Part shown: positions 15,241 through 63,700 of the stretch, in pieces | How positions within the stretch are numbered: the first letter of the stretch is position 1 | Layout of the letters: each line of letters begins with the position of its first letter | Assembly (NCBI GenBank): GCA_934045905.1 | Contig: OW203767.1 | Coordinates: 20,029,073-20,093,072 of the forward strand | DNA from: Leuctra nigra | Lineage: Eukaryota > Arthropoda > Insecta > Plecoptera > Leuctridae | Reading direction: 5' to 3' | Length of the DNA stretch: 64,000 nucleotides | Position numbers and translations under genes: made by a program | Notes under the pieces: model-generated | The model's input: the letters and a program-made list of their open reading frames with translations, nothing else | What the model was told of the DNA's origin: nothing | Databases searched by the model: none

Positions 15241-15333
15241 CCACAGAGTCAAGATGGCTGCCGTATTGAGCAAGCAGTGAATAGTGTCTATGTAATATGT
15301 TAAAATACTAAAAGTAAAGTGATATTAAATAAA

Positions 15334-20342: not shown

Positions 20343-20541
20343 TGTGATGTTGGCTAGAACTGATGATCTAGAAGGCAGTGCCAACAGGAAGTGAACATAG
20401 TCTCTAGTGTGACTAGAGTGGTTACATTGTTAGTTGCTGGCTGTTTTAGAATAAAGAAGACTACCACATTATATTCTTATAATTATCTGTTTCAATTAAA
20501 TAACTTATGTAGTTTATTAAGTATTGATTGATAACAACACA
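20343..20541 (+). repeat. 5' LTR of Gypsy-type element
   Basis: This 199-bp LTR is bounded by TG and CA. It contains AATAAAG at about 20,450, which can serve as the poly-A signal. It looks identical to the 3' copy. Confidence 0.95.
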
Positions 20542-20619
20542 TGGTGGCGGCGCGTGAGTAAGAAAACCAGTAAATTTACGCAGTATTACGTTATTTTCGG
20601 TATAAGAAAAGCAAGAAAA

Positions 20620-29500: not shown

Positions 29501-32500
29501 TTATTTATGTTGAACTAAACGAACCCAATGCAATCTAGTACGTCGTTTCATGCGGATGCGTAAACCACGATTAATGCGAAGCCGCGTCTTCAACCGGTTC
29601 CACCAATACCGACCCAGCATCTCCGTGAAGAGTAGTAAACTGCCGATGGTAATGCCGGCCACCATGATGGAGAATATGGGAGTGACCGCCTCAAGAGAGA
29701 CGCTGATGAAGATGCTCCCGGCTTCCGGCATCGACGTCGACCAGGCATTCACACGCAGACGGTTCAGAACACCTGCGTTGCGGAGGTATTGAAGACTGCA
29801 GAGGGAGAGAAAACATATCTTATGAAGATACATATCACGCAGACGGTTCAGAACACCTGCATTGCAGAGGTATTGAAGACTGCAGAGGGAGAGAAAACAT
29901 ATCTAATGAAGATACATATCACGCAGACGGTTCAGAACACCTGCATTGCTGAGGTATTGAAGACTGCAGAGGGAGAGAAAACATATCTTATGAAGATACA
30001 TATCACGCAGACGGTTCAGAACACCTGCATTGCAGAGGTATTGAAGACTGCAGAGGGAGAGAAAACATATCTTATGAAGATACCTATCACGCAGACGGTT
30101 CAGAACACCTGCATTGCAGAGGTATTGAAGACTGCAGAGGGAGAGAAAACATATCTAATGAAGATACATATCACGCAGACGGTTCAGAAGACCTGCATTG
30201 CAGAGGTATTGAAGACTGCAGAGGGAGAGAAAACATATCTTATGAAGATACATATCACGCAGACGGTTCAGAAGACCTGCATTGCTGAGGTATTGAAGAC
30301 TGCAGAGGGAGAGAAAACATATCTAATGAAGATACATATCACGCAGACGGTTCAGAAGACCTGCATTGCAGAGGTATTGAAGACTGCAGAGGGAGAGAAA
30401 ACATATCTAATGAAGATACATATCACGCAGACGGTTCAGAACACCTGCATTGCAGAGGTATTGAAGACTGCAGAGGGAGAGAAAACATATCTAATGAAGA
30501 TACATATCACGCAGACGGTTCAGAACACCTGCATTGCAGAGGTATTGAAGACTGCAGAGGGAGAGAAAACATATCTAATGAAGATACATATCACGCAGAC
30601 GGTTCAGAACACCTGCATTGCAGAGGTATTGAAGACTGCAGAGGGAGAGAAAACATATCTAATGAAGATACATATCACGCAGACGGTTCAGAACACCTGC
30701 ATTGCAGAGGTATTGAAGACTGCAGAGGGAGAGAAAACATATCTAATGAAGATACATATCACGCAGACGGTTCAGAACACCTGCATTGCAGAGGTATTGA
30801 AGACTGCAGAGGGAGAGAAAACATATCTAATGAAGATACATATCACGCAGACGGTTCAGAACACCTGCATTGCAGAGGTATTGAAGACTGCAGAGGGAGA
30901 GAAAACATATCTAATGAAGATACATATCACGCAGACGGTTCAGAACACCTGCATTGCTGAGGTATTGAAGACTGCAGAGGGAGAGAAAACATATCTAATG
31001 AAGATACATATCACGCAGACGGTTCAGAACACCTGCATTGCAGATGTATTGAAGACTGCAGAGGGAGAGAAAACAAATCTTATGAAGATACATATCACGC
31101 AGACGGTTCAGAACACCTGCATTGCAGAGGTATTGAAGACTGCAGAGAGAGAGAAAACATATCTAATGAAGATAGGAGCTTGGCATCGAAGTTAAAACTT
31201 GTAACTAAAGCCCGATTTACACGGTACAATTTCTTGAACAACTTATGTGTCGCATTCCCATTTTTCATACAATTTTGCATTTACACGAAGCAACTTTCTG
31301 TCACCGAACTTAAAACATGTTCTAATTTCCTTCAAGAAATGTGACAAAGACTGTGCCAAAGACTGTGACACAGAAGTTGTTCAATAAATGTGACCGTGTA
31401 AATAGGGCTTAAGGTTGAAATGTTGTTTGAATTTAATAAAGTTTGGGTTTTTACTGCACACTTGTGGTGGCTCCTCTACCATTCATCTGATCAATCTAAA
31501 ATTTGGCACATATGGACATCTTTTATTTGTCTGGGCCTTAACGTCGCACTGTTCTGCAGCGAGGCTAATGGCGACGGAAATATGGACGGGCATATGGACA
31601 TCATTGCATAAAATCACCTGCCTGGTTTTAAATCCGTTTGGCTCTTTTAGGTTGAAAAGTCATAGGGTCGTTCCACCGGAATTAGACCAGTGGTCGTTGC
31701 GGCACTATTTAATACAATTTTCTAACTTTGCTCACAGAAACATATATACTTATGAATGTAAAAACGATTTTTTGCATATTTTTTACTTTTGTCGTTTAGA
31801 AGATACGGGCCTTAGAGGTTTGGAGAACAAGCAAAATAAGGGTAAACGGCAAGTCTTACATTTGTACCAAAAACAAAGATAATTGTGTTCCACCAGCGTT
31901 GTTAGATTCAGAAAATGTTCATCTTTCAATAAAAAAATTCAACATTTGATTTGGGAAACTCTAACTGTGCAAATTTGGGGTGCATATTTTCGGCGGGAAA
32001 TCGTGTTTTTTTTTATTTTTGAGCCAATGTTTTTCGTTCAATGTTAGTTATTTCAAAACAAATATTTTTGTGTATGAACTACATACCAAGTGGTATAATA
32101 ATTAGCTGATAAACATTTAAAATTATTCCATTAACCTAGCTAAAAAAATATTCAAATATTTGGGAATTCAATTTTTTCCCATTTTCAAGGTCATCGTACG
32201 GAAAAGGGGGACCTCGTATAATCTGGTGGAACATACACTAAGATTGGCGAATATAAGGTTGATAATTACTGAAAGTTTTGTTTTGTATATTGGCTTGGTA
32301 TAGAAGTTACGATACTGTCCTTGTGGTCAAAATTGAAAATAAATTAATTTTTGACATTTTTGAGGTCATAGTACGGAAAAGGGGGACCACATATATTCTG
32401 GAAAGAGATGCGCTTACATTCACGTATATAAGGTTAGTAATTACCGAAAGTTTTGTTTTGTATATTAGTTTGGTATAGAAGTTAGGTATCATTGATGAGG

Positions 32501-35500
32501 TATTCACGGCTCAAATTTACTTCTGATTCAGATTTTATAAAAAAAAACATTAATGATGCACATTTATGATATATGCATGATTATTATTTTAATTTTTACT
32601 ATATAAATATCAACGATCAAGATTTCATCGCTTTAGATGATTTAAAATATTAGCCCTAATATTAGCCGAAGATAAATAAATATAATAATTTTGAATCTAT
32701 TGTCAGTTTTAAGTTAACATGATATACAAAACCAAACATTGAGAAATTAAGAACATTAACATCACCAATTCAATCGTAATTTTTTACAGAATTAATGAGG
32801 TCCCCCTTTTCCGTACTATTACCTACAAAATGCCAAAAATTAACTTATTTTCCATATGCAGTACCTCATCAACGTTACTGTAACTTCTATACCAAACTAA
32901 TATACAAAACAATACTTTCGGTAATTACTAACCTTATATACGTGAATGTAAGCGCATCTCTCTCCAGAATATACGTGGTCCCCCTTTCCGTACTATGACC
33001 TCGAAAATGTCAAAAAATATTTTATTTTCAATTTTGACCCTAAGGACAGTATTGTAACTTCTATACCAAGTCAATATACAAAACAAAACTTTCAGTAATT
33101 ATCAACCTTATATTCGCCAATCTTAGTGTATGTTTCACCAGATTATACGAGGTCCCCCTTTTCCGTACGATGACCTTGAAAATGGGAAAAAATTAAATTC
33201 CCAAATATTTTGATATTTTCTAGGTTAATGGAATAATTTTAAATGTTTATCAGTGGTATTTATTATACCACTTGGTATGTAGTTCATACACAAAAATAAT
33301 TGTTTTGAAATAACTAACATTGAACGAAAAACATTGGCTCAAAAATTCAAAAAAACACGATTTCCCGCCGAAAATGTGCACCCCAAATTTGCACAGTTAG
33401 AGTTTCCCAAATCAAATGTTGAATTTTTTTATTGTAAGATGAACATTTTCTGAATCTAACAACGCTGGTGGAACACAATTATCTTTGTTTTTGGTACAAA
33501 TGTAAGACGTGCCGTATACCCTTATAAAACTTGTTCTCCAAACCTCTAAGGCCCGTATCTTCTAAACGACAAAAGTAAAAAATATGCAAAAAATCGTTTT
33601 TACATTCATAGGTATATATGTTTCTGTGAGCAAAGTTAGAAAATCGTATTAAATAGTGCCGCAACCATTTTTCTTAAAATTGGTCTATTACTGGTGGAAT
33701 AAGCCCATATGAATCAGGGAATTTTGCAAGGTGCAATATTAAAATTTTCTTTTATATATTTGAACCAAATTACTCGATAAAATGTACCTACTTGAATGAT
33801 ATGATAATCAGTATCACAAGGCAAGAAGATTAATCCACACAAAAAACTAAATATCATGGGGAAAAATATAAATATATTTCTCTTTTTTTTGTACATTCTT
33901 TTTCTTCTTTTGTGGCAGATGTGATAACTTCTAAATTCTTCTGATGCATGATCCAAGGCATTTGGGACATAAATGGTCTCAAAATTGTAAAAGAATCTAT
34001 CCGTATCAATTATCTACCAACCCTCTCATACTAACTTGAAATTGAAGAGTCCTCGATACGGACTCCCCTTGGGAAGTACCATGCCGGCCGCATCTGGCAG
34101 CGCAGCGTTGGGAAGCGCCACCAGCCGGCAGGGCAGGAGGCCCTCCAACATGCCCAGGGCGATGTCGTACGCGGTCATGAACGAGTACTTGTTCTTCTTG
34201 CACACGTCGCGTAGACCCTCGATCACGCTCGTAGGCAGAGTCTCCTTGTACGGCAGGAGAAGCTTCGTGTACAGCTTCTTTAGAAGAGCATCTTCTGTTT
34301 GCTGAGATAGAAGTATGTTGCATTCATTCACTGCAAATGTATTCTAATTAGAAATTAAATGTTCTATTTCTTGGAATCGTCATTAGTTTTTCACAGCGTT
34401 TAAGTTGTTTGGCTTCCAAGGGAACTTTTACAACTTAAATCTGTACAAATTCTGGTACCTAATTATATTTGCTCTTGGTAGAGATATCTCTAATACTACA
34501 AGAATAATCCAGAAAAAGCAAGGAAAATGTCAAAAATTGACAAAAAAAGTATTAACGCCGAGGTAATAATTACCTTCATCTTTGAACTTACAAATACCTA
34601 TGTAATATTTAATTTTAGATAGGGATTGTCAAATATTCTCATAACTTCAGCAAAACTAGGCAATAATGAGTACAGGGACCCGAACCTTTATGAATAAAAG
34701 TTCGGGTTCCGGTTCCACAATTTTATTTTATAAAGGTTCGGGTTCCGGTTCAGAAACAAATATTCTTAAAGGTTCGGTTCCGGTTCCTGCATAAAGGTTC
34801 CGGGTTCCGGTTCTAAATTTTTAAATCAAACTATATTATAAAACTTCAGTATTACCATATGTCAAATTTAATGGAATTATTGGATTTGGATTTTCCTATG
34901 AATGCAATCTCAGGTGTAGGCAGTGTCTGTATAAAATTCACAGGATGGTGCGCAGAGTAAATATCAGAGGAGACAGTATAGTGGCTGCAATTTTCTCCAT
35001 AAGACAACGTAAACATTCATTTTTCCTGAGCTATCATATTCAAATTGTCGGCAATGCAGTTCTCATCGCAGTAGTCAGATTCAAAAATTGAGAACTCGAG
35101 CAGCGTTTGCATAATGAAGAATTATATTTCTTATCAAGAATTAAAAATGTCTACAAAAATACATTTTGGAAATTTTATCAAAAAATAAACTTTATACAAC
35201 TTTGTGAATAATTATCCAAGTGATATCCATGTTTTTTTTTATTAAAAGAAGGAACCTTATATAACCTTTAAGAACCTTTAAGAACCTAATTGATTATAAA
35301 GGTTCGGGTTCCAGTTCCGGTTCTTTGGGAAAAAAGTATAACGGTTCCGGTTCTGGTTCCGAAATTATAGAGGTTCATACCGGTTCTAGGTTCCGGTTCG
35401 GGTCCCTGAATGAGTAAGTACCAGGACCTTCTTTAATTTCATAATATGCTCATTTTACAATTGTCTGTACTACGAGCTTTGAGGGCCCTTTTGATATGTA

Positions 35501-38500
35501 TACCTAGCTTCTATTCGCCTTCTTTTGTGACACAGACAGTAGGTACACTCAAACAAATAAAAATCGGTACTTGAAAAGAAAAGGATTGGCTGATTAACGT
35601 GGCTCAACCGATCGAACATTCCAAAATATTTATTTTTTGAAATTACCATCACGAATTACTTTTTCCAACATTTCAACTATATTTAAGTATAAACAAACCA
35701 TAAAATGTAATTTAACTTGCAACTCCTGTCTTACAGCGAGGTTTCAAATTATTGCCTTCCGAGAATGAACAAAACTTTAACACAGGAGGTATAGGAAAAT
35801 TATTGCGTTTTTCGTTTATAGCTTCTAAAAAAGCACACGTTGGTATTGTTTTGAATTTTTTCCTTAATAGAATATAAATACATATATCTACCAGAAAAAA
35901 AGTTTTTTGATCAAAGTTGGGACTACATAAAAATTAGATCTTCATTATTAGCCTAAATGTGACACGATTTTACTTGGCTGCCATAAGATAACATGGGGAA
36001 GAAAACTCAATTTATCTCAGAAACTAGACACGAGAAGTGTTTAATTTTTTCAATGATTGTGTATGGCATGATTATCAATAAGTAGACAAAAAATTATGAA
36101 AATCTGAGACTATGCCCGATTGGATGAGCCACCTTAAGGTTTGATGGCATTATCCCATGAAGGCTGTGTCTTCTATCTTATACCTCTAGTAGGTGAGCTC
36201 TTATTTCATTGATAATAACAAGGATTGATTGTCAAGGAACCTTACCAGCAGCCAATCCTATTCTTTTCGAGTACCAATTTTTATTGGTTTGAGTGTACAT
36301 ATATTACAAGCATGAACACTGTCAAGACTGACCTCCAGAAGGTTGAGTTTCCCGGACTTGGCGAGGACCGTGAGTCTGTAAGAGCCGTCCTTGAGCATGC
36401 CGCTGAATGAATTGAACGGCAGCTCGGTGCCCTGGATAGTGAGCGATGAGACGAGACCTCCCGAGTATGCAGCTAACACGATGATCGACATGATGCCGGC
36501 GAGGAGGTGGACCGTTCGACTGGAGATGCCTCGTGGCGTCACGCAATCACCTGCAACGTTACTGAGGATTTTTAAAAAGATCAGAGATTCAAACGTGTTT
36601 CAAATATTTTAACTGATTTTTAGTTTAGGTAGTACTGTTGCAGTTTGACTGATGTAAACATACACAGATATATTGAAGTTTTCTCTTACACAATGACTCA
36701 TGAAAAATATAATTGGAATAAGGTAGAATGACTGGTTTTTGAGCTCACCACAAGAATCACAAATTAAATCATAAAGTATTTTGCACACCGAATTGGAATG
36801 GTTTATCTGAAACAGATTTTAGTTAAGCTGCTTTCACACTACACTATTGCCCCGGGTTGAAACCTCAGTCCGACCCGAGTCAAGAAATAAAACGTGTTTA
36901 CACCTTGATCGCTCCGGGTCCAGCCCGCGGAAACTATAACCCCAGTCCATCCTAGGGTTTCAACCCGAGGCGAATTTGACCCGAGGCGAAACTGGTTACC
37001 TTCTCATCCACGTGAGCTCTGTAATCTTATCATTTTACTTGAAACACAAAATAATGGAAATGTTTGCATGATACTGCATTAATAAATAAACTACTTAATA
37101 AATTATTACCTTTATTATCCAAAGAATCAACAAACTGTGCCGATCATTGCTACATTTTGATTTTGACAGCGGCATTTGACGTTTGAAAAAGAAAAAAACA
37201 AAGAAATCTTACGGTATCCACTGCCTTCTTGATTGGTTTTGTTCAAGGTCCACTAAATCTCCGCTCCTACTAGCGCGCAGCACCTCACGGTGCTAATTAG
37301 GTCGTTGCACACACTTCCACTATGTTAAGTCCTCCATTGCGGAGCCAAACGGAAACCGGAAGACGTCACGCATGCGCAAGACAGCTTAGCTAACATCTGA
37401 ACTGTCAGATGCAGTGTCCGTCAGTAAGTCGGCATAGTCACAAAATAGTATAAATTGATGTTTACCTTTTGTTTGATATTGATCAGTTTCATCGTCTTGG
37501 TTTTAATGTAGTATGAGCGATCAATGTTATTCAACAAAATTTACTTCCGTTTCCGCTTTACTTCCACTTGATTACATCCGCTTGATTTTACTTCCGCTTT
37601 ACACCGTAATGGCGTCAGATGGAACGACCCTATTTGGCGGTTCGCCTGTTCTCCGCTAGGAGAAGATTTAGTGGACCAGGGTTTTGTTCAATGACAAAAG
37701 CTGTAAATACATCGTAGTGTCATGTAGTGTAAACACATTCAATTTTTTGACCCCGGTCAAGCCCAGGGTCCAGACCCGAGTCGTAAACCCGTGGGTTTGA
37801 CCCTGGGATTAAGTGGTGTAGTGTGAAAGCAGCTTTAGTGTATTGTTATCCCCAATTTACCTTGCTGGCAAAAGCAGCCAAATATAGAGAACAGCGAATA
37901 TCCGAAGCTGTATCGTGGGGGTCCATCACAATCTGCATTGCCAAAGTAACGACCGGTGTGGTAGGCAAAACTCAGGATTGCGCCTAGCACGACGATAGAC
38001 TCGATGACGGCAAACCATAGGCTCTTTTCGAACGGCTCTAGAAAGTTATTCCATCGTAAGCTCACCGGCTGAGGTTGACGGATGAACACACTGCTCCTAG
38101 AAAATAAATGTGATTCTTATTCAAAATTAAGGGGAATGTGCTGTGATAATTTGCCAATTTTGAAATTTTTCGTTTTTTTTACCATTATTTAGATTAAATT
38201 GTTAATTACATGTCAAAATTTGGAATTTTTTAGCCTTTTATTTATGTTGTAAAAAAATAATTTTTGCATGTTTGTAGTATATAGCTTTGAATATAGTTAA
38301 AGTTTGAATGCTGTTATCTCCGGAACTATTTTTCTTCACATTGACTGTTGCAATTTCCTACTTCTTTTGAATAATTCAACTTAGAAGGCTGATTTTCTTT
38401 TGGTAAGTGTAGTTATTTGTGATGAACAAAAATTGGCATTTTTATTGTTTATAAAATGAATAGAGTACTAGAGTGCCACGCCCACTAGGCACTTCCGGAT

Positions 38501-41500
38501 TATTTCTGGATTTCTTCTTATGGAAAATAACATGGGGACTTACTTCGATTGCTGGTCATTTATAAACAAAACAGAGTTAAGAAAATCGCAATACACCACC
38601 ATTAAATTCAATCTTTCATTTATAATATTATGTCAACACATCTCTTCAAATATATACCAAATTTAAACTGTTCCAAGTTAAACAACACACTACACAGGGT
38701 ATGACGTCACGAAAGTGTACACCGGTGCAAGATGTAAATTCAATGAACTGTCAGTCTACATTTCAACAGCTCATTACATGATTACATCTCGTTTTATGGT
38801 ATCCTGAAATCAAAATAACTATTATAATGAACTTGATTCAGTGTATAAACTCGAGGAGCACAGAAATACTTCAGTTTTGTTTACTTTTCGTCAACAATCA
38901 AAAATTGACGTGCAAGGTCTGGCATCATTGTTGAAAATTGTTTCATTTGTTTTTCATTTTTGTAAAGTCGCAGTTGCCAGCTCGCTACCCAGGACATCGC
39001 GCTGCGCCGTGTTACAATTTATTATTGATGTAGATTGCAACGTCGCACTTTGGAGCTGTTTAATAACTTAAACAGATTAACTATGGTATATATTTGAAGA
39101 GATGTGTCGACATAATATTATAAATGAAAGATTGAATTTAATGGTGGTGCATTGCGATTATCTTAACTCTGTTTTGTTTATAAATGACCAGCAATCAAAG
39201 TAAGTTCCCATGTTATTTTCCATAAGAAGAAATCCAGAAATAATCCGGAAGTACCTAGTGGGCGTGGCACTCTAGTACTCTATACATCTTATTAAAATAA
39301 TTAGGTAAAGTGTTAATTACCAATAAAAAGTGTAAAAAAATGTTTTTTATTTTTTATTTATTTTTGCAAACTAAAGTACCTATTACACTAAAGTAAATTT
39401 GGAATGCCAACTTCATTAACCCAATTGAAACCTGCGGGATTTGGCTCAGAGGGTAGAACACAAAGAATCAGCAATATTATAATTTGTTTATTACAGAGAA
39501 AATAAATGTTCATTGATGTGAAAAGAGCAATCAAAAATTATGAAACAATATTACGTTCGATACGTCGGCAGTAGTGATGATGTCGTCTGGTTTGTTTACT
39601 TCCGCGTAAACAAGTGGATGGCGTTGACTCTTGCGTAGTGTGTCCCGTGAACTCCAGTCCACCAGCAGAATGAAATGACTGGATATGTCACCTCCTTCAG
39701 CTGCGATGCGATGATGTTGTCTAATAACCCCTTGGTTACCAGGACGTCCAGCAGTCCGTGCACAAGGAGTGACCTCCTCGAGCAGTTGGATCAAGTTGGC
39801 TCAGGCTGATGACGTTCGTGGCTGCAGACTCGTCGGTTTCTCCCGGAGTTGCAATTCACTAACTTTTATACTTTAACATTTACTGACTTTAATGTTGAAA
39901 CTGTTCAGTTGATCACTTGTAACTTGAAATTGTCTTAATGCGATATTATTTGCCTCAGCATTAGGCTTGAAGTTTGAATTTACTGGGTTGACGTTTATAC
40001 AAAAATGTTATTTTAATGTTTACCTTCGATCACATCGGCACTGTCTCGCTGAAATTATACTATGTTGCGTGCACAAGGCTTCACGGTTCGCGAGGCAGGT
40101 CTCACTGCTCTGAGAAAACTCCGACTGATGAAGTTTGGCTGGTAGCCTGACGTTTTATACCCTCTGACATCGTTTTCCCTCCAAAGAATCTGATTGGTTG
40201 GTTTCGTACACGTGATAGCTAATTTTAGACATTCTGTCATTTCTAAAGCCCGCGAAACGACTTTCTTTCTGCGCGTAGGCCCATGCTCTTCTTGGAATCA
40301 CTGAAAACTAGTCTGGCTGACTGGTTTTGTAGCGTTATCACAATGACTGGTTCACTTGTTATTACGTGGTGACATCACAATTTAGGTAAGGTCACATACT
40401 TATTATATGGATTCACTCACTTTCTTGATATAATTGCACATTGTTAAACTTATTTGATTGCTCGTTATATTTTTGTCTATATTTTGATTGCTGTTGCATT
40501 TTAAGATTGTAAGTTTACATAATGATTCTAATTAATTACTTTGTGTTCAGTTAACCTTGACTCTAAGAATGCCATGCTACAAGCTTGTTCATTCTTTAAA
40601 CCTATTTCAAGCAAACATTATTATTTTTAAAGTTAATTTTCTAACCTAGATAGGCCAACTTGTTACACAATCATTTGTGAACATAAAAATAAAAAAATAA
40701 ACAATGTAGGTCAAGGAATATAAATGTAGTAGGGATTTATCGTAATACATCTTTTAATAACTAATTAATTAATACAAATTTGAAAAATTAAAAAATATTT
40801 TTTTTTTGTATTTTTTTTATTAGTTTTAGGCAACTCTTGATATCTTCTCAAAATTTCAATATTGTATTACCTAAATTCATAGAGATAGAAATTTCACAGC
40901 ATATTCCCCTTAAATAAGAAATATTTTAATTACAATTATCTTTAACTCCGGCTAATAATCTTGAAACCACGATAATCTTGTAAGGTGTAATATTTTAAAA
41001 TGAAAAGCGGTGAATAGCCAGACAATGGCTTACCGAGTGAAAATGAGAGGCAGGAGAGTATCAATTGCGCTGGCCCGACCGAGCGTCATAGAAAACTCGT
41101 TGATAGCAATGTCCACTTCATCGCGCATGATCATGGCAATCATTCCGTTCCATGAGCCGTTGGGGAGTTGCGAGCCATATGCCTTGTCAGGAGGCAAGTA
41201 GTACGACGATCTGCAATTTCAACAGAGACACGTTGTTGAGACCGCATATGTGGCACTAAATAAAAGAGTGTGTACAGATATTGACAAACTGAGTGCAAAC
41301 CAGGGTATGTGATTATTTTCATTTTTTTAATAAAATAAAAAAAATCAGATTTATTTGATTTAAATCGATTTTTAAGATTAATTTGATTTAAATCATATTT
41401 TTATTGATTAAAATCGGATTTATATTGATTTAAATCAAAAAAATAATATAAAAAAGTGCAGAAGACGAATGAAATATTTGGGAAAGTAGGAAGGTACTTT

Positions 41501-52700: not shown

Positions 52701-53810
52701 ACAATGTGCAAATTCCACCCCCAATTTCTGAGGGGTAGGTAAAGTTCGTTCACGATAAGAATATCACTGACGTTTTAGTCGATCACGTCGTTCATTGGTC
52801 AGTCACTTGAACACTGCCCTGTCAATGGCAAGACTTTCTTCTTTGTATTATTGAAATTGTATAAATTATGTCAAATACACAATTTTTAATAGTAGTAAAT
52901 ATTATAAAAATTCAATAAAATTGATTTATTTTTATCTACAGCCGTATTATACAAATTTTTTGATTATTATATTGATATTTACATGTTTAGGTATACGTTC
53001 ACTTGACTACGGTAGTACACGCCGCCATTACGTCTTGCTATTCTAATCGTGAATGAACTTTAGGTCCGACATATTGTTGGCATAAATGTTGTGTTCTAGA
53101 ATTTACCCATAGGCACTGAATATTCCATGACATACAGAGTAATAGCAAGTAATGCACTACAAAATAAAAAAGAAAACAAGGTAGGTAGGTATGTAAATAA
53201 AAAAAAACTTATTTAGGCACAGTCAGACCATGTGACCCACATTGATTTCTATACCTAGTCCACTTTATACGCAATAAATTCATGTGAACAGTGATTTTTT
53301 CCCCAAAATTATTCATTTTATTACCTATATTTTCTGTTGACAATGCATGACTACGTTTAACAACATTGCAAGAAATTAGTTTTAAGATGTCAGGCTAAAA
53401 TGCTCCCATCATAAAATCAGCAATTGTATTTTAAAAAAAACAAGAAACAAACTGTCCTAGTACCGTATACCTTTACTCATTGTAAGCTAGAGTAAATATA
53501 ACTTGTCATTTCAGGTAGGTAGGTGAAATCTAGGGGTGACGTAATAGTGGTTCACAACTGTAAAGCTTTCTGAAAGTAAGGTTTCATTGAAACAATTTCC
53601 GATGTAAACAAAATATATTATTTTACAACCTATTGAATAAAGTTCAGAGATGCCTGGCACACCAAAATCACATGCACACATGGTGTACGCGCCTGCTTAA
53701 GAAGTACTACAAATAGGCACTCACTTGTCGTCATCATTTGAAGGTAAGTTTATATTTTCTTCTGGGGTATTAGGTTTCTCTACTAAAGTCGGGGGATGTT
53801 CTTCTTCCAT
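46710..53810 (-). CDS. MARCHF5: MARCHF5-type mitochondrial E3 ubiquitin ligase, seven coding exons
   Basis: Coding exons: 53725-53810, 52322-52527, 50194-50240, 50032-50115, 49184-49374, 48518-48674, 46710-46865; phases close throughout to give 308 residues. The RING-CH finger is complete (CWVCFATDEED, CNCRGTTKWVHQGC, CPQCNTEY). Four membrane segments follow, with family signatures CPFAAAGIVVGSIYW, VVGHKEGL, GLPTIPIMLILGKM, VSATRVLCSALL and GGIAFVAIKGALKIYHKQQQ. Known MARCHF5 sits in the mitochondrial outer membrane and ubiquitinates fission factors and other clients. The N-terminus (MEEEHPPTLVEKPNTPEEN) is longer than in vertebrates. The ATG lies in an exon starting after a TTTTTTTTCAG acceptor at ~53,830, so a noncoding 5' exon exists upstream. 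Confidence 0.95.
47474..48308. mobile_element. hAT-type element with GGTTCG motifs
   Basis: It begins TAGGGGTGTGCGAACC and ends GGTTCGCACACCCCTA, with a perfect 8-bp duplication ATAAAATG (47466-47473 and 48309-48316). Subterminal CGAACCGAACC motifs resemble those of the 1293-2570 element, but the interiors are unrelated. It lies in the last MARCHF5 intron. Confidence 0.85.
50280..50438. mobile_element. PIF/Harbinger-like MITE, copy 2
   Basis: A TAA duplication encloses AGCCCCATTTACACGGTGCA and TGCACCGTGTAAATCGGGCT. The long inner arms with TTCTTGAACAA are shared with the copy at 31,209. It is only 40 bp upstream of a MARCHF5 exon. Confidence 0.75.
50440..52321. other. Long MARCHF5 intron without recognised content
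   Basis: It is AT-rich. A TGAATGTCGTT-type direct repeat occurs near 51,020-51,075 and CCCCGACC/GGTCGGGG palindromic phrases near 51,450-51,475 (CTTTCAACCCCATGG... GGGGTTGAAAG). No coding segment is seen. Confidence 0.4.
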
Positions 53811-53829
53811 GGCAATACCAGCTCCGGGC

Positions 53830-54847
53830 TGAAAAAAAATCAGAATCTCACAAATGCTGTGTTTACCGTCATCTTTCCAGCAGACTAATACAAACAAAAA
53901 CGTAAAAACGTAAAAACGACAAAACGTTTTTAGTTGCAAACAAAAACGCCAACCAACCAATCAACCGACAGTAGGTAGGTAGGTACACCTATCTATAGCT
54001 AGGTACGAATGATCAACAAGCTTTGTATAATTATGCCGAAATCAACACTGCGCTGTTAATGAGCATTCATAGCAATAAAAACAGGTTCTGCTACAGAGAA
54101 TGTGTTTTTTTCTGTATAATTTACATTTTGAAGAAGAAAAACAAACATAACCATACTTATTATTCATAATTAATGAGCAAAGGTTACAGCGGCCAGTAGA
54201 GACTGACAGTTATATATCACGTACTTCAATAAAATCTAATGAACGAGTTTTAAGATAAGATTTGTTGGACAATATTTAATTAATTCAATTATAAAAATAC
54301 TTACGATTCAAAACTGGAAAATGTAATTTTATACGTGGTTATGACCCCGGGCAAATTGGCATTCACATTGCATTTTACAGAGAGTAATAGATACTATCTA
54401 CAGACAGCCAATATGCATGATAAGGTAAAGATTACACCTAATTTTCAAATGGATCTACACATTTATTTATATTTATGTAGGTACAGACCAAAACAGTCAT
54501 TGATCAAAAGTCAAAATTATTCGCTGACATGACACTCTACTTTTTACGATGTTACCAACTCAACATCATTTAATTCATTCATGGCTGCCAATATGCCAAG
54601 TACAAAGCGGGACTTTTAAAAACCTTTGATTATAACATTTTTCACACTTTCTTTTCTCTAAGTCTATGATATCTAAAATATGTGGACTTAGAGAAAAATA
54701 CTTGCTTAATAATATTATGTAATGCCAGTGGACACATACAATTGCAATAAATAGTATACACATTGATATTTAGAGTAATGTAGGTAATTTAAATTGAGAA
54801 GATTCCAACCAAGTATAATACCACAAGTACCACTACTTTTGTCTATA
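53830..54847. other. MARCHF5 upstream region
   Basis: It follows the polypyrimidine tract before the exon with the MARCHF5 start codon. No open frame of interest. It probably holds a noncoding first exon and promoter, which I cannot place. Confidence 0.35.
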
Positions 54848-55150
54848 TTATGAGATGTCTTGAGTAAAGGTGTCATCTATTTGTGTTTGTGTGCCTTCAG
54901 AGCTGATGGTAGCTGGATCCAGTGGCACATCCGTGGGGTACAAGTAAATCCATGAGAACATTGCGAAAACGAGGAGAGCCAACAGTACCGCCGCAACAAA
55001 TACACTGAGAATGATGATCAGCTGAAAACCCAACGATTCGAAGAAATCGCTGGAAATTAAAAACGAAATTACACTTTGTAGGGACGAAATAATACTTTTA
55101 ATCAGAGGAGAACGATACTCGGAGTCCACGAATTGTTGGAATTGTTTCAT
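54848..55150 (-). CDS. Unrecognised 100-residue single-pass membrane protein
   Basis: The frame starts MKQFQQFVDSEYRSP and ends TFTQDIS. One strong membrane segment lies near residues 43-68 (LIIILSVFVAAVLLALLVF), followed by an acidic Thr/Asp-rich tail (DVPLDPATISSEGTQTQIDD). An acceptor-like TTTTTAATTTCCAG lies inside the frame at ~55,050, so the true protein may be a spliced one sharing only the part from DFFESLGF onward. I know no family for it. It lies between MARCHF5 and the Cys-rich gene, all on the minus strand. Confidence 0.5.
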   Translation of the reverse strand: MKQFQQFVDSEYRSPLIKSIISSLQSVISFLISSDFFESLGFQLIIILSVFVAAVLLALLVFAMFSWIYLYPTDVPLDPATISSEGTQTQIDDTFTQDIS

Positions 55151-56301
55151 TCAAATGGACTTTTTGTTGTTCTTCCAATGCCCTACCCTTGAAATACTTT
55201 GATCTGTGATCAAAGACGATACACAAGACGATATAACGGTAATATTATCCAGTAAAACATGCTCAATTGACCAATGAAGGTGGGCGTTGCCTTATGAAAG
55301 ACAAAAGTATTACCATGGTAACTCCAGGGTTCTTAGAAATAACAATTTTTCATTCAAACAAATGAAATTCAGAAAGTCAAAGAAATAGCTCACACGTGTT
55401 TAATAGTTTAATTTACCACTTGAAATAGTGCAATCAATATATTTCAACTCATATAAATCATGTTTGATGATATGCTGGACAATTATTACAGTGGTACAAC
55501 GAAACAAATTATATTTTGTCAGGTATGTTGCCAAATGGTTTTACTTTTTAATGGCTTCTCTCACTGGATTGTTTCGTCAACTTAAAAAGGCCTTACCTCT
55601 CTTATGATAAGTTAATTGAGACTGAACAATATTCAAGTAAATAGTTTAAATCATTGCTATATTATTAATGGCAATTTGTACCTAGATTGTAAAACTGTTA
55701 AATTCTGTAAGAAACAGCTGTTTGCTGTTAACTGACAGTTGTTTGGTCACTGACAGCTGTCAGTGTCCAAACATTGACTTTTGTTTTATGACGTAGTGGG
55801 GGGAGGAGATCTACATTGGTCAATTTATGGGATTATTTACGTGTTTTTGTCAAAAATCACCTATTTCAAGTTTTATTTTTTTCACTTTAAAAGCAATTTG
55901 GCAACAAGGTAGGTATACAGACGACCAATCAAACTACTGTGGCACTACAGGGGATTTTTTTGACAATATAAAAATTAAAATGCGTAAAAAAATGGAAAAA
56001 ACGCATATTTTCCCGGAAAATAATTTCCTTGAACTGAGCATTTTTTGCGATTATTTTTCTCTCGTAGTGAATACCTACTTCTTTGCTTCCAAATTTTCAT
56101 CGCTGGCGGTAATAGTATGTAAAAAATCATCCATGTTTACCACGTATTCCGATTTTATTACGCCTTTTTACATAACAATGAGAAAGAGTGATATAAAATT
56201 CAACAAGATATGTTATTATATTATATAGATATCATGTCTTTCAATTACAATAATGACGATTTCACACCTTTGTTACCTCACACAACGTAAAAATTCAAAA
56301 T

Positions 56302-59300
56302 TTAAACATTCGAAGTCTCCATCTTGTTTTCATTCCTAACGGCCGTGTCGTAATCCGGAAGGCCTTGGTCAAGGTCGTCAGATGGGATGTTGAGATTGAC
56401 ATCATGCAGGGTAAGAGGATGCGATGTTGCCGGTTTCGCAGATTTGAAGAAGCGAGTCACTTGGATGTTGTTATTGTCGGTTGTTCTCACTCGTACAGGG
56501 TTGCGATCACATAGCTCCAAGCCGCGATCCGGCAACACTGCACGTCGAGTACTCTGGGCTAGAACTGAGTCAAAAGTTTATTGAGCGAGCTTTCACTACG
56601 GTACTCTAAGGGCCGGTATAACCAAAGTTAATCTGAGCCGGATTAACTAAATATTGGACTAAATTGGCGGCACAGCCAATCAGATACCTCAAAATGAGTG
56701 AAACAATGGAATTTAATCCAAAAGTTAGTTAATCCAGCACTACCATGTTATTGTAACCATTATTGTGTAATCATTATTGTGTAACATTATTGTGTAACAT
56801 TATTATTGTGTTGTGTAACATTTGTGTAATTATTGTGATTATTGTGAGTATTGTAATTATTGTGTAACATGTGTAACATTATTGTGTACATTGTGTAACC
56901 ATTATTGTGTTATTTGGCAACCATGTTATTATGGCAGTGTTTTTACAATTAAGTCTCTCTCTCTTGGTTATTCCGGGCCTTATGACACTTTCTCTGTGTG
57001 CTTTTTGAACTTTTTGCCCCGTTCAACCAATCGATCTGAAATTTTGCACACACACTAATTATATCTAAGCGGTCTCGTGTATAGTTTTTAACAGGATACT
57101 GTTTTTGTTTAAAAATTTCAACTGGAACCGTTTGACAGACCAATTTTAAATTTTGCATGGTCATCAAGACAGTCATTTTAGGTGTTTTTGTAAAATTTTA
57201 GAGTCATCTGTCATTAACTTCAAAAGTTATTGACACTTTACGGACATTATAGGTGTGTGGTTGAGTTTGTAAAATTTCATGAAGGAAGTGTCAGATATTT
57301 TATCACTGCTTCTTTGACTCATTTCGTTTCGGCTCTTTCCAAGCTAATAATTCGCATGCAGTACGAAGACTATCGCCTTAGCTATCGCGTTACACAGAGC
57401 GTTTTCCTAGTTACAAAATATTTTGCTTTCGGTACAAATACTCTACTATCACAGGAATAAAATGTGTAAAACTGAATACCTATACCGACACCGACCCTAC
57501 AGACATCTATACATTCCTATACTTCAAGAGTGCTACGTATTATATTATGATAATCGCTCTGTATGGGATTTACTTTCGAAGTTGTTGAAGGCCGCACTTC
57601 TTTACCAAATTCTGGCTGTTATAAAAATATACCTACTATTATTAATTATGTTTACGATTAGATCATGCACAATGACTGGATAAGAATTAAGAAGCATATT
57701 GTTGTGCTGTGTCAAGTTTTTCTGCAATCGGGTAAAATGTAAGACGATCTCAGCCGTTCGTAACGGAAAAATTGACCTTGGTCCTTTGCGATATGACGCG
57801 ACGGCGGCAACTTTGTCTGAATACATCGTTGCAAATCCCAAACAAAGAAGCGTTTGTCAATGGTTAAAAAAATCTACTAGTTAAAACAAATTAATTTAAC
57901 AATCATTTACATAGTAAGTAGAGAGAAATAGTTAAAGTAGTACCTAAGAAATATTACATGACTAATTTTAAGCCCATCAGCAACTTTTGGTTGATCAACT
58001 TGGTTCTGCACATGTGCAGAGTAACTTTATTGTCACATAAGTAGTGATGGCCAATTAAAAAATTTCTGAAAAATGGAAATTTTCAAAAAAAATTAATGAC
58101 TATTGAAATTTTTTTAAATTTTAAACAAAGTTTAAATAAATTATATTTTATTTAATAAATGTATGGGCATACTTGGGATGCATACTGAACTCTATTATGA
58201 TGCGTGTTGTTGTCTGAGTGGTAAATGTGCTAAAATATCCTTAAATACAGCATTCAAATTTCCCGTCTACTTAGAAATTAATGTTTGGCCAAAATTACAA
58301 TGCAGAAAAACTGAGATGTGGGCTTTTATTTTGATTTTGATTTTACGCTTTTTTTAGACATTATTAACAATTGTGTGCAATAAAGCAATAAATAAAAGCA
58401 ATTTAAAAAAATTTCAATGCATTGAAAATGTTCATGAAAATTAAAAAAAAAAAAAAGAAAATTGCCATTACTACACATAAGTGACTGCACACGAGCAGAA
58501 CTAGGTAGAAACAAGGTTGCACTACCACCTCTGTTGTCCGAGCGATCACAACTGGCTGCGTTAGCGGCGACACCACGAGGGCGATATCGGAAGATGCAGC
58601 CGTACTTGATGATCAGGTAGATCAGGAGGAAAGCGGCTAGGAGGCAGGACCCCACGACGATGATCGACACCATCATGTCCTTGTCTTTCTGGTCTTTGCT
58701 GTGAGAGATAGAATAGTGCTACAGTGACAATACAAGCATTCCAGTTCACCTCAAAGAACTTTAGTTTAGTTGCAGAATAGTGCGACGTTAATACAGCTAC
58801 AATGTAAGCTAAATGTTCTCAAAAGTCTTCTTTAAAGTCCAGTAATACACTTGAGACATTTATTTCTTTTAAAAAGGCCCATACACAGTCAATCTTGCAT
58901 GACAATCTTACTTGACAATCCTGGAAAAGTTTGATCTGTGTGGTGCTTTAAGTGAAGCTTGAAGGCATTCAAACACGGACAGAAATCTTTCATTCCTGGA
59001 GGCCAAGTCTTGAAACTTACGCTTTCAGGACGCAAACGCTTTCGGACGTCATAAAGTCCCATTTACTGTAAGAATGATGACCTTGAAATCTTCCTTTAAC
59101 TGTTTAGCTTAATTTTGAATAAGGTTTTATGACTGTATAATATCTGTAATAATAATTATAATGTTAATAAATTGTTTACAGTAGATTGCTGGATGACAAT
59201 CAAATAAGTGGCTTGACTTTATGTTTCAATGTCGATCACTCTTACAGTAAATGGGACTTTATGACGTCCGAGAGCGTTTGCGTCCTGAAGGCGTAAGTTT

Positions 59301-60499
59301 CAAGACTTGGCCTCCTGGGCTTCATGTCAAGGTCACCCAGCTTGACATGCAAGTCGTCAAGTAAGATTGACCGTGTCAAGTGGGAAGGAGACGTTCGTGG
59401 CTTATTCGTAGGCGACATTCCAGAATTTGTTTCTTGACTGAAATTAATAGGTATAGGTACCTACTACGAAAAATACTTTTTTTGTCTGGGGCTTAACGTC
59501 GCACTGTTCTGCAGCGAGGCTAATGGCGACGGATGAATGATGATGTTGATGATTGGGAGATATTGGTGAAGAGTAGATAAGGATGGAAGGTGGGAAGGAG
59601 GCGGTCGTGGCCTATTAGTAGGGTAACTTCCCAGCATTTGCCTGTCGACTGAGGGAATATACCCCACCGACGGCTGCCACCTTAACGCGGTGGTGGGGTT
59701 TGTGTTGGCCAATGACCCATTGCAGCTACGCCGGCGAGCATATGCTCATGTGTAAGGGCTACCCATGCCGGACAGATCAGTGGTGAGGTCCAGACAAAGA
59801 GCAGCCAGGGTCGACCTATCCATACCCTCCCTTAATTTGCGGTCCCCTCGGGCCGGCCTTCCCCCTCGAGATGGTGATCCCCCTGAAATCGGGTTCCGCC
59901 GGCCCGAATCCTTACACCCCTCGGTCCGTCCCCCTTCCAGCCTGGCCTTCCCACCAGTGCTGGACTCCCCCGGATCGGGCCCGTTAGATCGACCCCTCCC
60001 CATGTCCTCCACTTTATTCAACAAAGTTATAAAGTAAAAATTAATGTGCGCAATATAACCTCGTCGTTGACGCGCCGTTAAACAATAATAATCTATTCTA
60101 ATCTGAGGGAATACCACGAAAAAAAACCTGTCAGGAAGGGCGGCCGCGGGAATCGAACCCGGGCCTCCGGAATACAAGTTCAGAGCGTTACCACTTAGCC
60201 ATACCTGTTCCGTGTGAAAAATACTCATTCGGGAACGACAGCCGCATGAATCGAGCTCGAAACCTTCGGCGTTCAAAAATGGTTGCAAATTGAAAATACT
60301 ACTATACATAGAGCCTATTTATGTGTAATCTCTCTGTACTAGGTTATGCTTGTAATTATGTTTGTGCTCACGCCTGAGGATTGTCCAAGGGCGTGACGAC
60401 CATGCCGACATACACAGCAGTCTGGTCGCAGCAATATCCATTGCCACATCGCCGCCAGCCCGTCTCGCACTCCACATTCGGCGGCTGTTCCTCCGTCAT
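56302..60499 (-). CDS. Cys-rich single-pass membrane protein with LPxY motif, three exons
   Basis: Exons 60372-60499, 58529-58698 and 56302-56558 join in frame into 184 residues from the ATG at 60,499. An N-terminal Cys cluster (CETGWRRCGNGYCC) precedes a membrane segment (VSIIVVGSCLLAAFLLIYLII, ~residues 52-72). A basic stop-transfer (FRYRPRG) and a cytoplasmic tail with DLDQGLPDYDTAV follow. The tail motif resembles LPxY sites bound by WW domains of Nedd4-type ligases; Shisa and WBP1-like adaptors have similar plans, but I cannot assign a family. No signal peptide precedes the Cys cluster. An acceptor-like TTGATCTAG at ~60,520 would allow a further 5' exon carrying one. It lies divergent to the transporter. 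Confidence 0.7.
56757..56935. repeat. TTATTGTGTAACA tandem repeat
   Basis: Imperfect repeats of ATTGTGTAACATT vary in length (ATTGTGATTATTGTGAGTATTG in the middle). It is non-coding and lies in the second intron of the Cys-rich membrane-protein gene. Confidence 0.75.
57000..57460. repeat. Interspersed repeat, copy 2
   Basis: It is the reverse-complement relative of 28,090-28,960: GTTACACAGAGCGTTTTCCT versus the reverse of AGGAAAACGCTCTGAGTAAC, and the CGATCTGAAATTTTGCA region. AT-rich and non-coding. Confidence 0.5.
57972..58520. mobile_element. Palindromic MITE, family 1, interrupted copy
   Basis: The left arm AACTTTTGGTTGATCAACTT matches the copy at 840-969. The right arm (GCACACGAGCAGAACTAGGT) is degraded. 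It is split by the hAT-type element at 58042-58472. Confidence 0.6.
58042..58472. mobile_element. hAT-type element with TAGTGATGGCC end
   Basis: It begins TAGTGATGGCCAATT and ends AATTGCCATTACTA, with a perfect 8-bp duplication CACATAAG (58034-58041 and 58473-58480). Subterminal AAAATTTC/GAAATTTTC motifs replace the GC-rich motifs of other families. Nested in a family-1 MITE. Confidence 0.8.
58880..59385. mobile_element. Nested MITE pair with TTGACATG arms
   Basis: The outer arms pair CAATCTTGCATGACAATCTT with its relative near 59,340-59,375. An inner element (about 59,000-59,318) has ~85-bp inverted repeats: GAGGCCAAGTCTTGAAACTT and AAGTTTCAAGACTTGGCCTC, continuing to TAAAGTCCCATTTACTGTAA. 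Non-coding. Confidence 0.6.
59672..60104 (+). repeat. Retroposon-type repeat, copy 2
   Basis: It shares with 42,901-43,300 the phrases GCCACCTTAACGCGGTGGTG, GCCGGCCTTCCCCCTCGAGA and GTCGTTGACGCGCCGTTAAA. It ends with TAATCTATTCTAATC. The segment just upstream (59,486-59,530, GGGGCTTAACGTCGCACTGT) also recurs at 31,528-31,575. Confidence 0.65.
60134..60206 (-). other. tRNA-like / SINE-type pol III promoter remnant
   Basis: The minus strand reads TGGCTAAGTGGTAACGC (A-box-like), then a pairable CTCTG...CGGAG arm, then GGTTCGATTCCCGC (B-box). The acceptor stem does not pair and the anticodon loop is too long for a tRNA. It is best read as a tRNA-derived SINE head or tRNA pseudogene. Confidence 0.5.
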
Positions 60500-60748
60500 C
60501 TCCTCAAGAAGATCTCTCTTCTAGATCAACCACATCACGTATGAAGAATTTTGTAGAAAAACCGTGTAAATTTGTTAAAATATCCCATTTGCAATCGTAA
60601 AACAGTCGGGAAATAAAGATCTTGGATGGAAAAGCAAAGACGGCTGTGATAAAACAAAAATATTGCAACTGATTTTTTCTTCGACACGAAATGACAGCAA
60701 GTGACGTTTATCGTTCTCGTTGAGATCTAAATTTGTTGATAACTTCGC
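60500..60748. promoter_or_regulatory. Divergent intergenic/5' region
   Basis: These ~250 bp separate the presumed starts of the minus-strand Cys-rich gene and the plus-strand transporter. It may be a shared promoter if neither gene has further 5' exons, which I cannot exclude. No TATA box is obvious. Confidence 0.35.
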
Positions 60749-63700
60749 ATGGCAGAACCAGATCCAACGAAGGCATCTAGAGTCCCCCAGTACGGCGCTG
60801 CTCTTGCTGGTGAGAACGTGTTCATACTTTGTAGTTTGATTTCTTGCCAATACTACTTGCCATTCTTTTCTTAAAATACATTTGTTGCATTTAAATATCA
60901 CTATATATTTTCCAGTGCTGAATTTGTAGATCATTATTTAGGTATCTATAGTTGTATCTCTCTCTTACAAGTGCTTTTAAACGGAGTGTTTTTTATGTCT
61001 ACCTCCATCAGAAATGTTATTTCTCACATTTTGTGTACCACAAAATTACCCATTAGGGGTGCATTTTACAATGGACACTTTGGGCACGTGGCCTCAACTT
61101 GCCGCGTTAACAAACGAGGTCAAACTTGGCTCCAACAGTTTGCCCAATAAAATACCGTGAGCGTTGTACCGTGATCCATGTATTTTCATTCGAATCAAGG
61201 TCATCCTATATGAAATAATAACACAGCAAGTATAGGGAAATCTGCGTGATGCGCCGTCATGTTTGTTCTTCCTAGCAACTCTTGGCGGCTTCGCCCTGGG
61301 CACTTGTCTTGGATGGAGTTCGCCCGTGGCAGATGAGCTAGAGGCCCATGTCGGGGGGATGCCAAGGGATGGATCGGCAGTGTGACTTGTTTGTTCTTGT
61401 CACAGCGACACTCGGCGGCTTCGCCCTGGGCACTTGTCTTGGATGGAGTTCGCCCGTGGCAGATGAGCTAGAGGCCCATGTCGGGGGGATGCCAAGGGAT
61501 GGATCGGCAGTGTGACTTGTTTGTTCTTGTCACAGCGACACTCGGCGGCTTCGCCCTGGGCACTTGTCTTGGATGGAGTTCGCCCGTGGCAGATGAGCTA
61601 GAGGCCCATGTCGGGGGGATGCCAAGGGATGATTCGGCAGTGTGACTTGTTTGTTCTTGTCACAGCGACACTCGGCGGCTTCGCCCTGGGCACTTGTCTC
61701 GGATGGAGTTCGCCCGTGGCAGATGAGCTGGAGGCCCATGTCGGGGGGATGCCAAGGGATGGATCGGCAGTGTGACTTGTTTGTTCTTGTCACAGCGACA
61801 CTCGGCGGCTTCGCCCTGGGCACTTGTCTCGGATGGAGTTCGCCCGTGGCAGAGGAACTGGAGGCCCATGTCGGGGGGGATGCCAAGGGATGGATCGGCA
61901 GTGTAACTTGTTTGTTCTTGTCACAGCGACACTCGGCGGCTTCGCCCTGGGCACTTGTCTCGGATGGAGTTCGCCCGTGGCAGAAGAGCTGGAGGCCCAT
62001 GTCGGGGCGAGGAGGCCAAGGGATGGATAGGCAGTGTGACTTGTTTGTTCTTGTCACAGCGACTCTCGGCGGCTTCGCCCTGGGCACTTGTCTCGGATGG
62101 AGCTCCCCTGTGGCAGATGTCGGGGGGAGGCTAAGGGATGGATCGGCAGTGTAACTTGTTTGTTCTTGTCACAGCGACACTCGGCGGCTTCGCCCTGGGC
62201 ACTTGTCTCGGATGTAGTTCGCCCGTGGCAGAAGAGCTGGAGGCCCATGTCGGGGCGAGGAGGCCAAGGGATGGATCGGCAGTGTGACTTGTTTGTTCTT
62301 GTCACAGCGACACTCGGCGGCTTCGCCCTGGGCACTTGTCTCGGATGGAGTTCGCCCGTGGCAGAAGAGCTGGAGGACCATGTCGGGGGGGATGCCAAGG
62401 GATGGATCGGCAGTGTGTTGGCGCTAGGCGGCGCCAGTGTCTTCTTCCCGCTCTCCTACTTGCTGGACCGCTTCGGCAGGAAGATGATCATGTTGGTCCT
62501 GGTGCCTCCCTTCTTCCTTGGCTGGGCGGTCATCATCGCCGCCAGCGAGATTGCCAACAAAGACGCCGCAACAGTTGCGTACGTCCTGGGCAGGTCAGTT
62601 GGGAAAACAAATGTTTGATAAGCGATTGCTGTATGCTTTTGGAGAATGTTTGGATATAATATTATATATTATTATCTTATATGTAATTTAAAGAAAAAAA
62701 AATTACTAGGAAATTGCATGCTCGTTTATTTTCTGAACATAGTATGAGGCCATTCACATATCTGGGGTTTGCGTTTTAAGTTTTGCGAGTTTATGTGACA
62801 TGGCTAAAAGGTGTATAGTGCCAGCCTTTATTCAGCAGAAATGGGGACAAAGTTTGGGAAAATTAATTTGAAGATATATAATTGTTCCACAGTATTGGGA
62901 TTGGTTTTAAAAGTTTCAGAACACTAAATAATCATATGAATGCATGACTTGATTATTTTTGCCAAATATTTTGCAAAAATTGATCACAAAATAATCACGA
63001 GCAGGAAAATCGGAACGAAAATATCGATATTTTCTCCACTTCCGTTCAGAGATTTTATGTTTTTGTTAACCTAAATGTATTTGTTAAATTCTAAGAAATT
63101 ATGATTCGGGTTTGGCCTCTTTGTGCAGTATATCATGTGTGTCGTGTATTGTATTGCGACCAGAAATTAATAACATTATCATTATTCATTATCAATCACA
63201 TACACGGTGCATTTTCAATTAACAGCTATAAATAACTTTTCAGTCCACTCAGAGATAAACATAATTATACACTACTTCTTGTGATAGACTTGATCATTTA
63301 CTTGATATCACTGAAGACGGAGCAAAGTCACGTCATGTGTCCTTCAAGTTATTTACATTTATCTTGTGGAGTGGTCGCTCCACCCAGCCAAGTATAGAAA
63401 AAAAGAAATCTAAAAATTCAGCTCTGAAAAGTAGTGATATCAAAAAATGGGCCAAGTCAAAACTTAATTTTAAAAACAAAAATATACTCGGCGCATCGTT
63501 TTAAGGGCATTATAGTGCCCTTATAGTATAGTATATATATATATTAATTAGTAAATTTTTTGGCAATAGCTTCTTTATATACACGATGCGCTAAGTATAT
63601 TTTGGTTTTTAAAATTAAGTTTTGACTTGACCCATTTTTTGATATTACTTTTCAGTGCTGAAATTTTAGATTTCTTCTATTTTTTTATAATTGAAGAGAC

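Follow-up and report, generated by a model that had tools for sequence, protein, structure and literature searches.

The DNA analyzed here, referred to as the window, is a stretch of 64,000 nucleotides from the plecopteran insect Leuctra nigra (assembly GCA_934045905.1, contig OW203767.1, positions 20,029,073 to 20,093,072 of the forward strand). It contains two genes in which a tandem array covers a 3′ splice junction (acceptor): a minus-strand ionotropic-receptor-like gene with array 1 at its final acceptor, and a plus-strand sugar transporter gene with array 2 at the acceptor of its second exon. These are the two top-scoring arrays found in the window by Tandem Repeats Finder (TRF). An earlier note on this DNA had placed both arrays on 3′ splice junctions and had proposed that the copy joined to the real exon remains coding-competent. 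The first statement was confirmed by TRF and by splitting the units at the junction, and the second by the reading phase and protein homology described below.

Array 1 (29752..31174, minus strand) consists of 17 copies of 84 bp, as determined by TRF (period 84, 16.9 copies, 98% match, score 2727), the unit split and an analysis of the array edges. Its 17 acceptors are spaced at a constant 84 bp, and each unit is composed of a 35-bp intron end (..CTCTCCCTCTGCAG) with the acceptor, a 44-bp exon start and a 5-bp joint. Copy 17 is joined to the intact last exon (29501..29795), the true acceptor ending at 29796. The preceding exon (34036..34300, upstream end approximate) ends in the donor ..TTCAA/GTTAGT, with which the phase of the exon-joined copy agrees, and two earlier exons were recognized at 36330..36555 (ends approximate) and 37878..38108 (upstream end not fixed), all on the minus strand. 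The spliced protein matches Lig_chan over residues 24-190 (E 2e-12) and aligns with GluA4 without a gap over the splice joint (NFNLQYLRNAGVLNRL / NLAVLKLSEAGVLDKL; E 6e-18). A genome search with the array 1 unit, in which the best candidates were scored, gave 17 matches, every one inside array 1, and a dispersed or transposon-borne repeat was therefore rejected. Also rejected was a plus-strand repeat protein, a 518-amino-acid open reading frame (ORF; 29639-31195) with a 28-amino-acid repeat, as the homology lies on the minus strand. This frame is open because 84 = 3 x 28, and no single stretch of it passed in the Pfam search. The period of array 1 is divisible by 3, yet most inner copies contain a TAG in the frame of the gene.

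Array 2 (61260..62417, plus strand) is made up of nine units, each about 130 bp long (range 115-133). TRF reported it at 61284-62417 (period 130, 8.8 copies, 93% match, score 1923), and self-BLAST and the unit split gave the full extent. The nine acceptors are spaced at 130, 130, 130, 130, 131, 133, 115 and 133 bp, and the unit combines an intron end of about 18-22 bp (..TTCTTGTCACAG) with about 108 bp of exon start. Of the make-up proposed in the earlier note, the 20-40 bp of intron fits both arrays, while the 45-95 bp of exon does not match the 44 and about 108 bp measured. Exon 1 of the transporter (60749..60809, MAEPDPTKAS.., donor GTGAGA) is followed by the array, the exon 2 body (62308..62593, donor GTCAGT), which is joined to copy 9 with its true acceptor ending at 62307, and the start of exon 3 (63961..64000), which runs past the window end and continues in the adjoining stretch L033. 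The exon-joined copy agrees in phase with exon 1 (..GCTG/CGACA..). The protein read from exons 1-3 after joining matches MFS_1 (1.4e-18) from residue 23, the exon 1-2 joint being residue 21, and Sugar_tr (2.6e-45) over residues 43-314. The predicted exon 1-2 joint thus rests on phase and on homology that begins right past it; a protein search with the transporter N-terminus gave 74 candidates, zero of them at E 0.001, and a PDB search with it gave no match.

In array 2, copy 1, at the distal end, carries its own diverged acceptor TTCTTCCTAG (61260..61275, TGTTTGTTCTTCCTAG), and its exon part begins with CAACTCTT for CGACACTC, a synonymous difference. Compared with the other eight copies, copy 1 (61260-61310) has three synonymous changes within the first three codons, as might be expected had it served for some time as the start of a coding exon.

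Exon-edge arrays in a position-chosen sample

To test whether such arrays recur, one 10-kb stretch was taken at 5 Mb and another at 15 Mb of each of contigs 1-10 of the host assembly (536 Mb, 144 contigs), 20 in all, chosen before their sequence was seen. Contigs 11 and 13 later contributed one further stretch each, at 5 Mb, with contig 12 omitted, for a total of 22. Arrays were counted if they had at least 3 copies and a period of at least 60; two-copy arrays, shorter periods and simple repeats were excluded, and one sampled array was entered at its full extent, known from an extended stretch. Arrays are referred to by code where needed: IR (array 1), TRET (array 2), K1-K5 (kringle gene), TRP (L013), ZAD (L011), CUB (L025), SAD (L037) and SUG13 (L032).

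The first 20 stretches contained 11 qualifying arrays: five at exon edges, one coding in frame and five others. The exon-edge arrays were an acceptor array of 121 bp with at least 20 copies in a zf-AD gene (L011), an acceptor array of 70 bp x 3 in a TRPC channel gene (L013), and three arrays in a kringle gene (L016). An EGF-domain gene (L025) contributed a two-copy exon-edge duplication, outside the 11-array count, in which copy 1 has a net deletion of 5 bp. From the later stretches came a donor-side 77-bp array in L039, while L038 had no exon-edge array. A PDB search with the L039 exon gave no match, and a suspected identity as a Methuselah-like GPCR was not borne out by Pfam. In all, exon-edge arrays were found in 5 genes in the 22 stretches. 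For an assumed chance of 0.03-0.1 per array that it would fall on an exon edge, 5 of 11 has a probability of 1e-5 to 3e-3 (2.6e-4 at 0.06 and 2.8e-3 at 0.1). Extrapolated to the whole genome, 5 genes in 220 kb would correspond to about 12,000 loci (Poisson range about 4,000-28,000); this fixes only the order of magnitude, which is thousands with a wide error.

The other five sample arrays (L012, L013:2234, L017, L019 and L024) are unassigned or dispersed. One 118-bp tandem unit occurs on two chromosomes (L017:2184-3068 and L024:4771-5306) and is dispersed and satellite-like, unlike the exon-edge arrays; L024 also encodes an insect cuticle protein domain (Chitin_bind_4, 5.8e-19). The array at L019:8383-9761 (plus strand, 129 bp x 11) has a weak Hisat_C match (E 0.0015) that is below the cut-off; the array was left unassigned and not counted as exon-edge, although it could be another case at an exon edge or a coding one. 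The array at L013:4140-4399 (94 bp x 2.8) was left uncounted, having no assignment. At L023:3744-4588 (minus strand) a 69-bp unit is repeated 12 times in frame within a transposon-like ORF, which we take to be a Helitron.

For the kringle gene the stretch was extended on both sides to 30 kb. Each of the 5 exons recognized within the 30 kb has an array: K1 (168 bp x 34) and K4 (71 bp x about 21) on the donor side, and K2 (145 bp x 31), K3 (128 bp x 22) and K5 (116 bp x 48) at acceptors. Exons 1 and 2 together form one kringle (Pfam 1.7e-18) and exons 3 and 4 another (9.6e-14), while the fifth exon has no Pfam family match. Further exons may lie between the five that were recognized.

Motif scans and the tally of acceptors and donors

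Degenerate DNA for conserved protein motifs was searched genome-wide, and tandem matches were counted as clusters. The kinase motif HRDLKP gave 47 matches at 39 loci with 1 cluster, the homeobox motif WFQNRR 80 matches at 72 loci with 1 cluster, and the serine-protease motif GDSGGP 452 matches, among the first 100 listed of which there were 67 loci and 6 clusters. The reversed patterns gave 13 (HRDLKP), 5 (WFQNRR) and 24 (GDSGGP) matches. A control, the reversed GDSGGP minus one base, gave 128 matches, the first 100 listed comprising 97 loci and 1 cluster, with a dispersed family making up 32 of these 100. The protease clusters alone (6 of 67 listed loci) exceed the control (1 of 97; p 0.019). 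Overall, the counts are suggestive of recurrence, not decisive. The GDSGGP matches are skewed by strand (362 forward and 90 reverse), and this may point to one or several very large arrays outside the first 100 listed places.

Six of the eight clusters were read, leaving C2:13977317 and C2:22305805 unread, and all six proved to be exon-edge arrays: L037, L041, L042, L043 and L044 at acceptors and L040 at a donor. For L042, L043 and L044 the reading covers the intron-side end, and the gene identities of L039, L040, L042 and L043 come from a motif or a general likeness. A family search that returned six Sugar_tr loci, one of them the gene in the window, added one acceptor array (L032, 65 bp, at least 21 copies). 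The proposal in the earlier note that the two window arrays reflect a recurrent process and no coincidence is supported by the 5 genes in the 22 position-chosen stretches and by the 6 of 6 clusters read.

There are thus 18 verified exon-edge arrays in 14 genes. Fourteen are at acceptors (IR, TRET, K2, K3, K5, TRP, ZAD, CUB, SAD, SUG13, L041, L042, L043 and L044) and four, in 3 genes, at donors (K1, K4, L039 and L040). The donor arrays rule out an acceptor-only principle, and the statement in the earlier note that the arrays are a matter of 3′ splice junctions is not supported. Without the two arrays of the window the ratio of acceptors to donors is 12:4 (two-sided p 0.077), and among the position-chosen arrays, including those from the extended stretch, it is 6:3 (p 0.51). 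In the clusters read, the motif is mostly located just inside an acceptor, and the motif scans are for this reason biased towards acceptors. A preference for acceptors is possible.

Anatomy of the arrays

The edges of 12 arrays were analyzed. The edge copy has 2-35 bp of intron homology, and the exon part is 37-136 bp where the measurement is sound; the values are unsound for TRET, SUG13 and K4 (indels or a cut edge) and void for CUB. In IR, K2, K3, K5, ZAD, SAD and K1 the intron and exon parts together leave 5-40 bp of the period to filler, and in TRP only they overlap by 5 bp (microhomology). The joint of each array differs from that of every other. Copies share graded variants with their neighbours and show nested deletions. 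The first copy is the most diverged in TRET (12 mismatches), SAD (9), K2 (4, tied with an inner copy) and K3 (2), and is not the most diverged in IR, K5 and TRP. The CpG observed/expected ratio was 0.54-1.30 in 12 arrays compared with 0.89 in the sample, and CpG methylation was rejected as a targeting signal.

The exons next to the arrays have kept their frame or homology, as described above for IR and TRET, and with Pfam or PDB matches for the exons of the other arrays that could be assigned by profile (zf-AD, Kringle, EGF, Pkinase, Sugar_tr, TRPC and Trypsin); for L039, L040, L042 and L043 the indication is the motif or likeness noted above. The arrays themselves are not in-frame coding repeats: only 3 of the 17 with one clear period have a period divisible by 3 (p 0.13 for a number this low). 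In 9 of 10 acceptor arrays checked on this point, splicing to the next-distal acceptor would disrupt the reading frame or lead into a stop, as in ZAD, where 121 mod 3 = 1, or CUB, with a stop after CRNPVRG. The exception is array 1, in which this acceptor is predicted to add 28 residues in frame. Since the next-distal site mostly disrupts the protein, the extra copies probably behave as intron and are tolerated on that account. The suggestion in the earlier note that arrays are tolerated because one splice site always stays beside the intact exon is consistent with the sequence data.

Discussion

A structure of this kind is already known from amphioxus. One report (PMC3087553) describes minisatellite-like copies of a 3′ intron end with the 5′ part of an exon, or of a 3′ exon boundary, in the globin genes BflGb6 and BflGb9 and in Adh3, and names them mirages after earlier work on Adh3; splicing was undisturbed by RT-PCR, somatic instability was seen at Adh3, and a part in intron gain was considered possible. 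Another (PMC3902484) adds PGBD5 as a further case and mentions troponin C. The L. nigra arrays resemble the mirages in that a tandem unit with an intron part and an exon part spans the boundary (18 arrays here), that 5′ and 3′ boundaries are both affected (14 acceptors and 4 donors here), that the authentic copy stays with the exon while some copies retain AG/GT signals, and, less clearly, that edge copies are more diverged in some arrays. Unit lengths are 10-160 bp in amphioxus and 61-168 bp in L. nigra. The differences are the arthropod host, the copy numbers (up to 48 here compared with 3-6 in BflGb6), the five arrays in one gene and the 14 genes from a small search. Splicing and instability were assayed in amphioxus, whereas the present arrays were studied as sequence.

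Related cases are known. Tandem repeats at exon-intron boundaries of human segmental duplications (PMC2812944) are similar in being located on an exon boundary and being able to change splicing; they have units of about 30 bp in about 4 copies in recently duplicated primate genes and produce new introns or altered transcripts, while the units here are longer, the copies more numerous and the genes single. The AGGT model of intron gain (PMC4974935) also involves a tandem duplication that copies splice signals, with a new intron formed within an exon; in L. nigra the copied segment is the edge of an intron that was already present and only lengthens. No report of exon-edge arrays in an arthropod was found among the literature matches listed, which is weak evidence of novelty because subscription papers are largely outside that coverage. 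What is new is that the structure is frequent in an arthropod genome and that one gene can have several arrays.

We consider it fairly likely that the L. nigra arrays are mirage-like exon-edge minisatellites that arise by tandem duplication during break repair, expand, and are kept by selection for a working splice site. Repair of a break would tandemly duplicate about 60-170 bp, mostly one exon end with a short adjoining piece of intron, and would leave filler or short microhomology at the joint, as end-joining or template-switch repair gives; the fillers and the short microhomology suggest one of these for the first duplication. Unequal exchange or slippage would then enlarge the duplicate (2 to 48 copies were seen) and homogenize the inner copies, which is suggested by the variants shared between neighbours and the nested deletions. 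Finally, selection would retain arrays whose unit holds a working splice site, the extra copies being intronic while the copy that adjoins the exon body continues to be spliced. Possible contributors are adjacent nicks, R-loops or microDNA. Arrays wholly within coding sequence would persist only in frame. Two tandem duplications in long minus-strand ORFs, at 8080-8216 (69 bp x 2) and 4439-4559 (42 bp, about x 2.3), are both multiples of 3, as expected for arrays retained in coding sequence.

Several points weigh against this reading. Its account of splicing, instability and age comes from the DNA of a single assembly; the three other recognized exons of the ionotropic-receptor-like gene are without arrays; and the predominance of exon in the units may partly reflect ascertainment, as exon-rich arrays are easier to recognize. 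Most of the remaining points would favor chance, namely that minisatellites are abundant everywhere, that some fall on exon edges, and that two in one window are a post hoc coincidence. About half of the stronger sample arrays (5 of 11) are not at exon edges as far as they can be assigned. The chance figures depend on an assumed junction density and are weak when counted per gene (3 of 9: 0.014 at 0.06 and 0.053 at 0.1, or 0.002 to 0.05 over 0.03-0.1). One control cluster exists, the pooled motif clusters (8 of 178 listed loci) do not differ clearly from the control (1 of 97; p 0.11), and removal of the dispersed family from the control brings the protease comparison to 6 of 67 against 1 of 65 (p 0.062). 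Chance is nevertheless improbable, as 5 of the 11 arrays in the first 20 stretches span the splice site of a recognized gene (p 2.6e-4 to 2.8e-3), as do arrays at all five recognized kringle-gene exons and all six motif clusters read. Seeding specific to acceptors, in which the pyrimidine tract, the branch region or splicing itself starts the duplication, would account for the 14 of 18 verified arrays and the 12:4 ratio outside the window; it is unlikely given the four donor arrays in three genes, the 6:3 ratio in the position-chosen material and the bias of the motif scans.

About as improbable as chance is a one-step origin by rolling circle, in which small circles from transcribed exons are amplified and reinserted beside their source. 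Arrays of up to 48 near-identical copies would fit such an origin, as would the richness in exon and the unit sizes, which resemble those of microDNA. The two- and three-copy arrays (CUB, TRP and L040), on the other hand, resemble early stages of a stepwise process, and nothing here separates rolling circle from stepwise unequal exchange. A selected function, in which the extra splice sites control splicing or the repeats contribute segments to the protein, could draw on the 28 in-frame residues of array 1 and on worm minisatellites linked to alternative splicing in one report (PMC4039745). It is very unlikely, as the unit lengths show no excess of multiples of 3, the next-distal site is disruptive in nine of ten arrays, and the units of different genes are unrelated. 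Least probable is an assembly artefact. A run of N interrupts the L011 array, and the amphioxus report mentions one mirage misassembled in a draft (PMC3087553), but graded shared variants and nested deletions are not expected of copying by software, and the joints are all different.

A wider reading is that in this arthropod lineage tandem duplication is directed to exon edges genome-wide by a germline process, which would have affected something like thousands of exons and arisen separately from the mirages of cephalochordates. We put this forward tentatively, as a somewhat doubtful possibility, with breakage tied to transcription or splicing as a candidate cause of the targeting. If true, exon-edge duplication would be an overlooked way in which introns lengthen and decoy splice sites and new introns arise. 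Mirages had been a curiosity of a few amphioxus genes, and their recurrence in an arthropod suggests that mutations of this kind are general and repeatable. How the spliceosome passes tens of near-perfect decoys, whether exon edges are fragile, and whether the arrays feed intron gain thereby become testable questions. For annotation, arrays of exon pieces can yield false exons, false paralogues and assembly gaps.

Other elements in the window

Two further elements were seen on the plus strand of the window. A LINE-like element at 15304-19394 has an ORF with a PHD finger and an endonuclease-reverse transcriptase ORF (RVT_1, 4e-35), and its region (16001-20000) has a very strong plus-strand excess of G and A (GC skew 0.41 and 0.35). 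At 20521-24570 there is an open 1349-amino-acid gag-pol-like frame, presumably that of an LTR retrotransposon from its motifs.

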